From: Nanobdellota archaeon
GTDB lineage: Archaea; Nanobdellota; Nanobdellia; Pacearchaeales; GW2011-AR1
Assembly (NCBI GenBank): GCA_020056045.1
Contig: JAGVIM010000064.1
Location: 1 to 10,292, forward strand
DNA: 10,292 nucleotides
Reading direction: 5' to 3'
In this document: positions 6,867 through 10,292 of the stretch, one piece after another
Numbering within the stretch: position 1 is the first letter of the stretch
Layout: every line of letters starts with the position of its first letter
The notes under the pieces: model-generated
The model's input: only the letters and a program-made list of their open reading frames with translations
What the model was told of the DNA's origin: nothing
Database searches by the model: none
Position numbers and translations under genes: made by a program

Positions 6867-6872
6867 ATGATG

Positions 6873-8900
6873 ATGGTTAAGAATATTATTAAAAGAAACG
6901 GAAAGATTGTCGAATTTGATAAGGGAAAGATTGTTGAAGCAATCTGGAATGCTGCAAAATCTGTTGGAGGGGGTGATAAGCCACGTGCCGAAGCTCTTGG
7001 GGATCTTGTTATTAGAGAGATTAACAAAATCTTTGTTGATAGAACTCCTAATGTTGAAGATGTTCAGGATATTGTTGAAAAGATCCTCATTGAAGAAGGA
7101 CATGCCAAAACTGCTAAGTCTTATATCTTATATCGTCAGAGTCACCAGGAATTAAGGCATATCAAGGCCATATTTGATACAATAGAAGTGGTTGAAGATT
7201 ATATAGGTGAAAAAGATTGGGCAGTGAAAGAGAATTCAAATATGGGATATTCTTTACAAGGGCTTAATAATTATATTACAGATAAAATAGTTAAGAATTA
7301 TTGGTTAGGAAGAATTTATCCTGAGAAAATAAGAAAAGCTCATGAAAGAGCAGAATTTCATATTCATGATTTGGGAACACTTGGCCCTTATTGTGTTGGA
7401 TGGGATTTAAAAGATTTATTATTGGTTGGCTTTAAAGGTGTTACAGGAAAAGTCCAATCAAAGCCAGCAAAACATCTAAGAACTGCACTTGGACAGGCTG
7501 TTAATTTTTTTTATACACTTCAAGGTGAAAGTGCAGGGGCGCAGGCGTTTTCTAATTTTGATACGCTTCTTGCACCTTTTGTAAAATATGATAAGATGAA
7601 TTATGAACAAGTTAAACAATGTTTCCAAGAGTTTTGTTTTAATATGGCTGTTCCAACTAGAGTTGGTTTTCAGACTCCATTTACTAATATTACATTAGAT
7701 TTGAAAATTCCGAATTATATGAGAGATGAACCTATTATTATTGGTGGCGAGTGCAAATCTGAAACTTATGGAGATTTTCAAAAAGAAATGGATATGATAA
7801 ATAAAGCATTTGCAGAGGTAATGACAGAAGGAGATGCAAGTGGGAGAATGTTTACATTTCCAATACCTACTTATAATATCACTAAAGATTTCGATTGGGA
7901 AAATCCTATTTATGATAATATCTGGGAAATGACTGCAAAATATGGTATTCCATATTTTTCGAATTTTGTTAATTCTGACATGAAGCCAGAAGATGCAAGA
8001 AGCATGTGTTGTAGATTAAGGCTTGATCAAAAAGAATTAAGAAAAAGGGGTGGAGGATTGTTTGGTTCTAATCCTTTAACCGGCAGTATTGGTGTTGTTA
8101 CTATAAATCTTCCAAGGATTGGTTATACTTCTCTAAATGAAGATGAATTTTTTAAGAAACTAGATGAATTAATGGAACTTGCAAAAGAAAGTCTTGAATT
8201 AAAAAGAAAAGTTTTAGAAAGATTTACTGAAAATGGACTTTATCCTTATTCTAAATTTTACCTTAGGCAAGTTCACAGCAGATTTAAACAGTATTGGAAA
8301 AATCACTTTTCTACAATAGGAATTCTTGGAATGAATGAGGCATTAATAAATTTTCTAGGGAAAGATATTGTTTCTAAAGAGGGTAGAGAATTTTCATTAA
8401 AAGTATTGGATTTTATTAGAGAAAAACTTGGAAATTACCAGAGAGAAACTGATAATCTTTATAATTTAGAGGCAACTCCTGGAGAAAGTACTACTTATAG
8501 GTTTGCAAGAGAAGATAAGAAAAGGTTTGGTAAGATAATTGTTGCTAATGAAAATAGATTGTCAGATGGAGCAAAGCCATATTACACTAATTCTACACAT
8601 CTTCCAGTTTATTATACTGAAGATTTATTTGAAGCCCTTGAAATACAAGACCCCCTACAGACAAAATATACTGGTGGAACTGTCTTTCACTGTTTTATTG
8701 GAGAAAAGATTACAAAAGTTGGTGTTAAGATACTAGTCAAGAAAATCTCTAACAATTTCAGCCTTTCTTATTTTACATTAACGCCAACTTTTTCTATCTG
8801 TCCAAATCATGGTTATTTAGAAGGAGAACATGAATATTGCCCAAAATGTGAATTAATTCCAGATATAATTAAAAAGGAGGTGATAAATAATGAAAACTAA
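6873..8900 (+). CDS. nrdD: Anaerobic (class III) ribonucleoside-triphosphate reductase, large part lacking the glycyl radical loop
   Basis: From ATG 6873 the protein is 675 residues (two more if ATG 6867 is used). It starts with an ATP cone (about 1-97: VKNIIKRNGKIVEFD...TAKSYILYRQ), the allosteric overall-activity domain. The catalytic barrel includes HIHDLGTLGPYC174, NPLTGSIG and the thiyl Cys in SMC379C380RLRLDQ, plus EATPGESTTYR near 533-543. A C-terminal zinc ribbon has C643PNH646 and C656PKC659. The protein then ends with a 16-residue tail, ELIPDIIKKEVINNEN. The universally required glycyl radical segment that normally follows the zinc ribbon is missing from this chain. It is encoded by the next gene, which overlaps by 11 nt. 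Together the two should reduce ribonucleotides to deoxyribonucleotides without oxygen, as formate-dependent class III enzymes do. Confidence 0.93.
   Translation: MVKNIIKRNGKIVEFDKGKIVEAIWNAAKSVGGGDKPRAEALGDLVIREINKIFVDRTPNVEDVQDIVEKILIEEGHAKTAKSYILYRQSHQELRHIKAIFDTIEVVEDYIGEKDWAVKENSNMGYSLQGLNNYITDKIVKNYWLGRIYPEKIRKAHERAEFHIHDLGTLGPYCVGWDLKDLLLVGFKGVTGKVQSKPAKHLRTALGQAVNFFYTLQGESAGAQAFSNFDTLLAPFVKYDKMNYEQVKQCFQEFCFNMAVPTRVGFQTPFTNITLDLKIPNYMRDEPIIIGGECKSETYGDFQKEMDMINKAFAEVMTEGDASGRMFTFPIPTYNITKDFDWENPIYDNIWEMTAKYGIPYFSNFVNSDMKPEDARSMCCRLRLDQKELRKRGGGLFGSNPLTGSIGVVTINLPRIGYTSLNEDEFFKKLDELMELAKESLELKRKVLERFTENGLYPYSKFYLRQVHSRFKQYWKNHFSTIGILGMNEALINFLGKDIVSKEGREFSLKVLDFIREKLGNYQRETDNLYNLEATPGESTTYRFAREDKKRFGKIIVANENRLSDGAKPYYTNSTHLPVYYTEDLFEALEIQDPLQTKYTGGTVFHCFIGEKITKVGVKILVKKISNNFSLSYFTLTPTFSICPNHGYLEGEHEYCPKCELIPDIIKKEVINNEN
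8874..8884 (+). promoter_or_regulatory. Near-perfect Shine-Dalgarno site for the glycyl radical subunit
   Basis: AAGGAGGTGAT lies inside the 3' end of nrdD and matches the 16S rRNA anti-Shine-Dalgarno over about 11 bases. Its GGAGG core ends 9 nt before the ATG at 8890. It is the strongest ribosome binding site in the window. An in-frame TAA at 8884-8886 precedes the ATG, so the small gene must be started here. Confidence 0.85.
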
Positions 8901-9030
8901 ATGTGAGGTTTATTCTAGAGTTGTTGGTTATCTTAGGCCTGTTGATAACTGGAATGAAGGAAAAAGAGAAGAGTTCAAAGATAGGAAACTATTCAATGTA
9001 TCAGAATATAAAGATTGTAAAATAAAATGA
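8890..9030 (+). CDS. Separately encoded glycyl radical domain of class III ribonucleotide reductase
   Basis: This 46-residue gene is too short for most gene callers. It encodes CEVYSRVVGYLRPVDNWNEG (5-24) and EEFKDRKLFNV (28-38), which is the glycyl radical loop at the C-terminus of ordinary NrdD. Gly13 in RVVGYL is the radical residue. The start ATG lies in another frame within the last codons of nrdD, 11 nt before its stop. The end overlaps nrdG by ATGA. In normal NrdD this segment follows the zinc ribbon directly in one chain. Here it must associate with the large chain, insert Gly13 near Cys379-380 and be activated by NrdG. A precedent for a stand-alone glycyl radical piece is YfiD/GrcA, which replaces the damaged radical domain of pyruvate formate-lyase. 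C-terminal Cys43 is of unknown role. Confidence 0.9.
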   Translation: MKTKCEVYSRVVGYLRPVDNWNEGKREEFKDRKLFNVSEYKDCKIK

Positions 9031-9740
9031 AAATAGCCGGAATTCAAAAAATGACATTGATTGATTATCCTGATAAGATTGCTTGTACTTTTTTTATTTT
9101 TGGTTGTAATTTTAAATGTGGCTATTGTCATAATCCTGAGTTAGTTATCAGAGAAAATATTATTAGTGATTATTCCCTTGAGAAGTGTTTGGATTTTCTT
9201 AAAAGAAAAAGAAAGTATCTTGATGGAGTCTGTATCACTGGTGGAGAACCTTTAATCAATCCTGATATAAAAGATTTTTTATTTGAGATAAAAAAGATGG
9301 GATATCTAATAAAAATAGATACTAATGGAAGTAATCCGGATTTATTACAGGAGATAATACTTGAAGGACTTGTGGATTATGTTGCGATAGATATAAAATC
9401 TGATAAAGAGAAATACAAGCAAATCATTCAAAAAAATACAAATATAAAAAATATTGAAAAAAGTATAAAAATATTGATGCAATCTCAAACAGATTATGAG
9501 TTAAGGACAACAGTTATCAGAGGATTTCATAATCTTAAAGTTATAAAAAATATAGGAGCATGGATAAATAATATCACAAAAGTAAAGCCCAAAAGATATG
9601 TTATTCAAAATTTTATTCCTAGAAAGAATAAATTAATTGATAAAAAATTTGAAGATATAAAAGAATTCAAAAACGTTGAATTAATGGAGTTTAAAAATTT
9701 AGCTGAGGATTATTTTGAAGAAGTTATAATAAGAAATTAA
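9027..9740 (+). CDS. nrdG: Anaerobic ribonucleotide reductase activating protein (radical SAM)
   Basis: The 237-residue protein begins MKIAGIQKMTLIDYPDKIAC, typical of archaeal NrdG-like activases. The radical SAM cluster motif is C27NFKC31GYC34, followed by CITGGEPL (about 69-76) for SAM binding, IDTNGSNPD and VDYVAIDIKS. It uses [4Fe-4S] and S-adenosylmethionine to abstract hydrogen from the glycine of the reductase, here Gly13 of the small upstream protein. Length and motifs are complete. The ATGA overlap with the glycyl radical gene means activase and its direct substrate are translationally coupled. The related pyruvate formate-lyase activase is less likely given the neighbour. Confidence 0.9.
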   Translation: MKIAGIQKMTLIDYPDKIACTFFIFGCNFKCGYCHNPELVIRENIISDYSLEKCLDFLKRKRKYLDGVCITGGEPLINPDIKDFLFEIKKMGYLIKIDTNGSNPDLLQEIILEGLVDYVAIDIKSDKEKYKQIIQKNTNIKNIEKSIKILMQSQTDYELRTTVIRGFHNLKVIKNIGAWINNITKVKPKRYVIQNFIPRKNKLIDKKFEDIKEFKNVELMEFKNLAEDYFEEVIIRN

Positions 9741-9741
9741 A

Positions 9742-10292
9742 ATGATTAAAATAATAAATGAAAATAAATTAGATTCTAGGCCTAGCTGGGATGAATATTT
9801 CATGATATTTGCAATAGTTGCTGCATCCAGGTCTTCTTGTTTAAATGTTGGTGCAGGAAGTATTATAGTTAAAAACAATAAGATCTTAGGAACAGGGTAT
9901 AATGGCGCCCCTCCTGGATTAAAAAATTGTTTAGAAACTGGATGCAGAAAAGAGAACAAAGGACTAAAATACAATGAATCTTTAAATACTGGCACTTGTA
10001 TCGGAGTTCATTCCGAGATGAATGCCTTAGGGCATCTGTCAAGTTTGACTGATGGTGGCTTTACAATATACACAACAATATTTCCATGTCATAGTTGTAT
10101 AAAAAACCTGCTGGCTTATAATGTACAAAGAATTGTGTTTAAGGAAAAATATTCTGAAAAAGAACTTGAAAAATCAATAGATTTGCTTAAAGAAACAAAA
10201 GTTAAAATAGAAAAAATGAAGATAAGTCAAGAAAGAATAATTGATATTATTTTTAATCAAAATAAAAAATATTTTAATGTTTTTTCCTCTTG
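9742..10292 (+). CDS. dCMP deaminase (ComEB-like), 3' end outside window
   Basis: 183 codons are open from ATG 9742, one base after the nrdG stop, to the window edge. RPSWDEYFMIFAIVAASRSSC (13-33), VGAGSIIVKNNKILGTGYNGAPPGL (36-60) and the zinc deaminase motif VHSEMNAL (H90, E92) with FPCHSC (C116, C119) identify the cytidine/dCMP deaminase family. The GYNGAPPG segment is typical of dCMP deaminase. The reaction is dCMP to dUMP, feeding thymidylate synthesis. Its place directly after the ribonucleotide reductase genes fits a deoxynucleotide supply operon. The usual family length is about 150-190 residues, so little is missing. No clear Shine-Dalgarno site is seen. Tadas or riboflavin deaminases are less likely given GYNGAP and context. 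Confidence 0.88.
   Translation, partial: MIKIINENKLDSRPSWDEYFMIFAIVAASRSSCLNVGAGSIIVKNNKILGTGYNGAPPGLKNCLETGCRKENKGLKYNESLNTGTCIGVHSEMNALGHLSSLTDGGFTIYTTIFPCHSCIKNLLAYNVQRIVFKEKYSEKELEKSIDLLKETKVKIEKMKISQERIIDIIFNQNKKYFNVFSS

Follow-up and report, generated by a model that had tools for sequence, protein, structure and literature searches.

A class III ribonucleotide reductase with its glycyl radical loop on a separate gene: a recurrent and probably functional split

The contig JAGVIM010000064.1 of a Nanobdellota archaeon (assembly GCA_020056045.1), analysed over its 10,292 nucleotides (nt) and hereafter called the window, carries a class III ribonucleotide reductase (RNR) locus, in which the catalytic chain NrdD, a stand-alone glycyl radical loop and the radical SAM activase NrdG are encoded by three consecutive overlapping open reading frames (ORFs) (Table 1). 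The known features of a class III RNR, namely a catalytic core with ATP cone, a finger-loop cysteine and a C-terminal zinc ribbon, were all present, and the activase was found in the same locus; the glycyl radical loop is off the large chain and on its own ORF. Three tandem ATGs start nrdD, giving 677 codons from the first and 675 from the third. An earlier reading made from the letters alone (the sequence-only reading) had counted 675 residues and placed the catalytic cysteines at 379-380; these are the same residues, to be numbered Cys381-Cys382 in the 677-codon chain. The 11-nt overlap, a strong ribosome binding site belonging to the small gene and a stop in frame with and upstream of its ATG (TAA, 8884-8886), which that reading had described, were all recovered.

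Table 1. Features of the split nrdD locus in the window, and stand-alone loop genes of other loci (labels G, C and L denote genomes, contigs and loci)
Feature	Position	Strand	Remarks
nrdD catalytic chain	6867..8900	+	677 codons; ATP cone residues 6-94, barrel, zinc ribbon; without glycyl radical loop
Finger-loop Cys381-Cys382 codons	8007..8012	+	invariant across 26 aligned NrdD
Zinc ribbon CxxH...CxxC (C645, H648, C658, C661)	8799..8849	+	complete within large chain
AAGGAGGTGA, Shine-Dalgarno-like	8874..8883	+	inside nrdD 3' end; 6 nt upstream of small ATG
Stand-alone glycyl radical loop gene (MKTKCEVYSRVVGYLRPVDNWNEGK...)	8890..9030	+	46 codons; Gly13 codon 8926-8928
nrdD/loop gene overlap	8890..8900	+	11 nt, +1 frame
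nrdG, radical SAM activase (NrdG2 type)	9027..9740	+	overlaps loop gene by 4 nt
Spare-like loop proteins with N-terminal CxxC...CxxC	L204:4216-4470; L219:4125-4442; L192:3581-4114; L208:3-503		in bacteria also with intact NrdD
Example of a viral stand-alone loop gene	L239:3489-3629		

The large ORF matched positions 1-528 of the 562 positions of Pfam NRDD (PF13597, E = 1.3e-185), together with the ATP cone (PF03477, E = 8.7e-21) and PRK08270 (1036 bits), while the small ORF matched NRDD positions 531-562, i.e. the part absent from the large one (E = 7.7e-11), and nrdG matched TIGR02495 of the NrdG2 type (E = 4.1e-64). Because the large and small ORFs match complementary parts of one family, the split is not a chance arrangement, and the sequence-only description of a large NrdD with ATP cone, cysteines and zinc ribbon that ends before the radical motif, followed by a separate overlapping 46-codon gene for that motif between nrdD and nrdG, is borne out. 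At E values up to 1, PF13597 was the sole Pfam match of the small ORF, with none to the glycine radical family of the pyruvate formate-lyase (PFL) type, presumably the one named Gly_radical. When compared with the sequences of solved NrdD structures, the core match ended just past the zinc-ribbon CPKC (residue 703 of the 8p23 chain), and a profile of loop sequences (A2) aligned from 8p23 residue 712 (RITGYL, the RxxGY loop) with a weak E of 0.07, and with an E of 0.013 to the Thermotoga maritima NrdD; the radical glycine of 8p23 is 711 in its authors' numbering, according to the accessible part of PMC11226230. Judged from these alignments, the cut is between the zinc ribbon and the radical loop. 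The one-chain NrdDs of Prevotella copri (8p23), T. maritima (4u3e) and T4 (1hk8) share with the window the ATP cone (not in all of them), barrel, zinc ribbon, RxxGY loop and NrdG, whereas the window chain ends past the zinc ribbon and leaves the radical loop to a separate gene.

The split was found well beyond the window. A core search in 109 genomes gave 39 with a match at E 1e-30, including the first split relatives; the nearest ones, G029 (L137), G280 (L067) and G225 (L068), are cut at the same point and have other junctions, namely a 4-nt overlap in each of the first two and a 33-nt gap with five in-frame stops in the third, so that the absence from all close relatives, named beforehand as a ground for refutation, was not observed. 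A profile of 11 loop sequences, split and fused (A1), searched against 378 genomes drawn from the class, gave matches at 94 places in 85 genomes, of which 51 lay in frames of 41-102 codons and 43 in frames of at least 391 codons, with none between. Among the 76 matches above 45 bits, 39 were short and 37 long, and no genome had both; over all 94, four genomes (G093, G103, G114 and G122) had both, the fused and the split NrdD being of different subtypes. In a second, overlapping draw of 371 genomes of the phylum, matches were found in 91, and six new regions were fetched. Reading the loci frame by frame yielded 68 distinct split loci with the core upstream, after duplicates (L005, L008, L010, L011, L023, L026, L069, L100, L144 and L160) had been dropped; the listing of 70 loci adds to these L204 and L219, in which an extra loop gene accompanies a fused NrdD.

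A scan of named genomes with profile A2, in which the best 80 of 583 relatives were read, gave 82 loop ORFs, 56 of them within an NrdD frame or a frame of more than 300 codons and 26 stand-alone; 18 of the latter had a split core, two lay beside a fused NrdD (L204 and L219) and six were in loci without a core (L150, L182, L192, L208, L211 and L213). By record title, the 18 split cases belong in Archaea to Woesearchaeota (L144), Nanoarchaeota (L160), Aenigmarchaeota (L193, L194), Micrarchaeota (L156, L165, L191), Diapherotrites (L223) and a Thermoplasmatota metagenome-assembled genome (MAG) surrounded by fused relatives (L149), and in Bacteria to Elusimicrobia (L168, L179, L197, L199), a Hippea MAG (L170), Lentisphaerae (L177), Anaerolineae (L187), Bipolaricaulota (L214) and Halanaerobium saccharolyticum (L221). 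In the Halanaerobium genus group all 12 genomes were split and none fused, with the core match ending at NRDD 530-538 and the loop gene lying 783-918 nt past that match in a frame of 43-78 codons; the order in the locus read (L221) is core-nrdG-loop. In eight of these 12, the nrdD core lies in a 1044-1556-codon frame and its NRDD match is in pieces, as inteins would give. In the phylum of the Elusimicrobia genome G523, 31 of 41 genomes matched, comprising 17 with the loop in a short separate frame (in G604 on another contig), three in phase, and 11 fused, divergent or fragmentary. Additional loop genes occurred in six of the 17, one in a 260-codon frame, and a further NrdD locus in G630 has its two parts in phase, separated by a single stop. 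The long frames of G609, G622 and G627 could be a core and a loop joined by a long linker, the reported frame length being one that runs through one stop if the two matches are in phase (as in G079, G522 and G526). The search for split relatives with the small gene, which the sequence-only reading had proposed for related DPANN genomes, found them spread far wider.

The junctions between core and loop gene differed from locus to locus. Relative frames 0, 1 and 2 were taken by 16, 30 and 22 of the 68 split loci, respectively, and the loop start lay from -137 to 1259 nt relative to the core end, the -137 value (L007) being a product of the start-choosing rule, with a downstream ATG 1 nt past the stop. 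The median gap over the 70 loci was 1 nt, gaps were as long as 835 nt in L221 and 1259 nt in L122, and as many as five in-phase stops stood between core and loop gene. A Shine-Dalgarno-like match of at least 5 nt preceded the loop start in 61 of the 68 split loci versus 15% in shuffled upstreams, a count that is indicative only, as the start was picked to maximise the match, which inflates it, and the control was not so picked. Among the 69 of the 70 loci with at least 700 nt shown downstream, 58 had nrdG downstream on the same strand. These junctions bear on whether a programmed frameshift or stop readthrough joins the frames into one NrdD, as the +1 relation and the strong Shine-Dalgarno-like sequence near the stop in the window might suggest, and as is formally possible by readthrough in the 10 of the 68 split loci that are in phase with a single stop. 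Such joining is highly unlikely given the occurrence of all three frames, the large gaps, the multiple in-phase stops, the position of nrdG between core and loop in L221, and the loop genes of Caldisericum G531, found ~9 kb away from the core and on a different contig; because of gene order, one joined product is ruled out in several lineages. No usual slippery site was seen by eye at the window junction, and the fixed frame relation with a shift site across relatives that marks programmed frameshifting was not found. One chain could also be restored by trans-splicing, an intron or an intein, as in the Jug phage nrdD, which is likewise in pieces, being fragmented in 95 of 104 genomes, and for which splicing of several introns is supported (accessible part of PMC12363816). 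In the window, however, the genes overlap and leave nothing to splice out, no intervening sequence is present, the small gene has a start signal, and the median gap given above is 1 nt, making this extremely improbable.

Selection on the loop genes was estimated by the Nei-Gojobori method for 11 pairs. The loop dN was 0.02-0.19 and the dS 0.67-1.60 in eight pairs, being saturated in the other three, and the dN/dS of these eight was 0.01-0.15; the core dN was 0.03-0.16. For the window against G029, the loop gave a dN of 0.19 and a dS of 1.28, and the core 0.16 and 1.74. The loop genes, like the cores, are conserved and under purifying selection. A quick LG+G4 tree built from 157 core rows (92 fused, 64 split and one without loop match, with one duplicate kept, L011 = L140), with weak support for 47 of its 153 inner branches and with long branches joining at the base, required a minimum of 19 changes of the split/fused trait versus 44-55 in 50 label shuffles. 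The window falls in a 25-row clade (support 99), whose only fused members, G028 and G173, group together inside it (98), and this nesting suggests a re-fusion or several splits. A draft contig with two frames one base apart is what a sequencing or assembly error, or a decaying nrdD, would look like, and a one-chain gene would then be falsely split; such an origin is exceedingly improbable, as the split recurs in independent assemblies with different frames, gaps, new starts and Shine-Dalgarno-like sites, in all 12 genomes of the Halanaerobium group and in the single-contig genomes G121 and G145, and the dN/dS is low. The earlier claim of a functional split rather than decay is strongly supported, and the split extends to many archaeal families, several phyla of bacteria, viral contigs and a second subtype of NrdD.

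The place of the cut relative to the zinc site fell into three types. In 40 of the 68 loci, the window included, the core holds the whole zinc ribbon; in 19 it holds the first three ligands only and the small chain opens with a Cys motif (L141 and L187 being ambiguous); and a further eight, which belong to a divergent NrdD subtype, have one CxxC at the end of the core and the other at the start of the small chain, L091 being left without a type. With a CxxC on each chain, the zinc site of the eight divergent loci would therefore need both chains. In four Elusimicrobia loci and Hippea, heptad-spaced hydrophobics were noticed by eye at the core tail and the small-chain start, a possible coiled-coil tether between the chains. 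A divergent split NrdD also has an in-frame TGA directly before the Cys of its finger-loop CC (L134:2395-2397); for a selenocysteine reading, no tRNA-Sec above the cut-off was found in its genome G122.

Next to be weighed is whether the core has another source of its radical. In G121, a single contig and 100% complete, PF13597 matched only the core and a loop gene of 85 codons, PF02867 (the class I/II catalytic domain) had no match, and no other RNR was detected. Among 48 class genomes chosen for a loop gene or split pair, a core match was present in 46 and a fused NrdD in none (PF13597, E 1e-5); their full-length PF13597 matches cross at least one stop, that of G299 running into a loopless core tail (L070). 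In a largely overlapping list of 48 genomes with the split pair, PF02867 (E 1e-5) was absent from 27; it was absent from six of the 15 with a completeness of 90% or more, and since many others are incomplete drafts, single absences are weak evidence. The four genomes with both a fused and a split NrdD are outside these 48-genome lists. Since the core is loopless and no fused copy occurs in the 48 genomes, the small gene provides the only loop evidently available to such a core. That the small gene is instead a dispensable, GrcA-like spare and the reductase gets its radical otherwise has in its favour the loop genes beside an intact NrdD (L204, L219, G527, G529 and G530) or alone in viral records, and the divergent intact NrdD of the window assembly; with the adjacent core loopless and no fused copy in the class genomes searched, it is very unlikely.

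The two-chain reductase is weakened by several observations besides the in-phase loci and the start-picked ribosome-site count. G039 and G376 have a loop gene and no core match, and the loop dN exceeded the core dN in seven of the 11 pairs and was lower in four. Some extra loop copies lack the radical glycine (L232:2178-2405, Gly to Glu; L135:1126-1404, Gly to Trp). The window assembly, 73% complete with 3.6% contamination, holds a full-length divergent NrdD (C163) and a class II-type RNR (C142, PF02867), and the split pair was found in one of the 17 other genomes of the genus (G016). Given these other RNRs and this rarity, the pair may have been acquired by the archaeon or be dispensable to it, or the window contig may be misbinned. 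A second full-length nrdD had been named by the sequence-only reading as a ground for refutation; it does exist in this assembly, yet it leaves the split itself unrefuted, since none of the 48 class genomes with a loop gene or split pair has a fused NrdD. The C163 protein (L002-L004 of G000) is encoded by an NrdD-like frame of 1017 codons at 28% identity; it carries a glycyl motif of its own and is extended at the C-terminus, and it had no other strong match in the genus; by eye, the extension is thioredoxin/glutaredoxin-like and an NrdR-like ORF lies upstream. In the window, an ORF past nrdG (9743-10292) runs off the contig end and looks dCMP deaminase-like by eye, with an HSEMNAL motif, which would fit a nucleotide operon.

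Loop genes also occur in excess of cores. One core with more than one loop gene was found in G195, G448, G413, G415, Caldisericum G531 and the six Elusimicrobiota genomes. The second loop gene of G195 (L225:7741-7875) lies ~0.7 kb before an AhpC/TSA peroxiredoxin gene (8555-9121) on the same strand. An intact NrdD is accompanied by a stand-alone loop with an N-terminal CxxC...CxxC in Patescibacteria (L204, L219) and deltaproteobacterial MAGs (G527, G529), by two stand-alone loops in G530, and by a loop gene in G535; these extra loop genes beside an intact NrdD are spare-like. Among viral_contigs, the best 80 of 439 relatives (L239-L318), fragmentary records and a sample biased to the stand-alone form, gave 68 stand-alone loop ORFs without a core in the locus, two with a core and 10 fused; searching the whole record for 50 of the 80, mostly longer ones, gave 44 with a loop only, five with a fused NrdD and one with a split pair. 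Eight of 10 neighbouring proteins in 10 lone-loop viral loci matched PHROGs (portal, two tail fibres, two DNA repair exonucleases and primase among them), as did four of eight in three further loci (integrase, HNH endonuclease, reverse transcriptase and nucleotide-sugar epimerase; none in L261), some of these functions also occurring outside viruses. In PHROGs, the lone loops themselves matched only NrdD family tails, apart from one family without a known function. These lone viral loops may serve a host NrdD. The annotated NrdD of Oceanotoga phage vB_OteS-UFV02 (L319, a 1758-nt coding sequence) includes the radical loop match and is fused.

Small stand-alone glycyl radical proteins that serve a larger enzyme in trans are known as the PFL spare parts YfiD/GrcA and T4 Y06I; the window loop is of the NrdD type, not the PFL type, and is the sole loop of its adjacent core, probably not a spare. 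A C-terminal RNR domain on a separate gene is known from Pseudomonas aeruginosa NrdJa+NrdJb, one of the known split RNRs according to the accessible parts of PMC9669993 and PMC5704485, but that enzyme is of class II and its detached part is a cysteine-rich reduction domain, not the radical carrier. In P. copri NrdD, dATP disorders the radical domain (accessible part of PMC11226230), so this domain is able to move as one piece; such disordering was not seen in StNrdD (accessible part of PMC12662201). In the literature covered, which mostly excludes subscription papers, no NrdD with its radical loop as a separate functional gene is described, nor is a split NrdD in that on Nanoarchaeum equitans split genes and DPANN; N. 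equitans encodes an anaerobic reductase (accessible part of PMC3655853), and the accessible parts of PMC9531940, PMC11528403, PMC4390871 and PMC12288474 hold nothing on a split NrdD.

Taken together, the split is real and recurrent, and probably makes a functional two-chain class III RNR; from the sequence evidence, a radical subunit that docks in trans is very probable. The large chain would supply the ATP cone, barrel, finger-loop cysteines and zinc ribbon, and the 46-residue chain the radical loop; NrdG, translated next, would take a hydrogen from Gly13, the small chain would put its loop into the large-chain barrel as the C-terminal loop of a one-chain NrdD does, and the glycyl radical would then pass to the finger-loop cysteine. 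We infer in this way two separate polypeptides, their docking, the radical on Gly13 and activity. The idea that a separable radical subunit can be swapped once damaged is less certain still, and its replacement after oxygen damage, in the manner of YfiD, is a hypothesis made plausible by the extra and the lone viral loop genes. The broader proposal, that the NrdD radical loop is an exchangeable subunit cut loose repeatedly in archaea and bacteria, giving obligate two-chain enzymes, some with a shared structural zinc site, and that viral copies supply or renew the host radical subunit, as an RNR equivalent of what T4 Y06I is to PFL, seems to us only slightly better than an even bet.

The finding bears on a question left open by Andorfer et al. 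2021, in the accessible part of which (PMC8683613) YfiD and Y06I are the only validated spare parts and others are thought possible for other glycyl radical enzymes. A natural separate radical domain would allow activation, docking, radical transfer and oxygen damage to be studied by mixing the parts, for which Halanaerobium, a cultured genus, offers bench-accessible material. Truncated-looking reductases may in fact function with two chains, and viral genes of very small size may influence the DNA precursor supply of the host.
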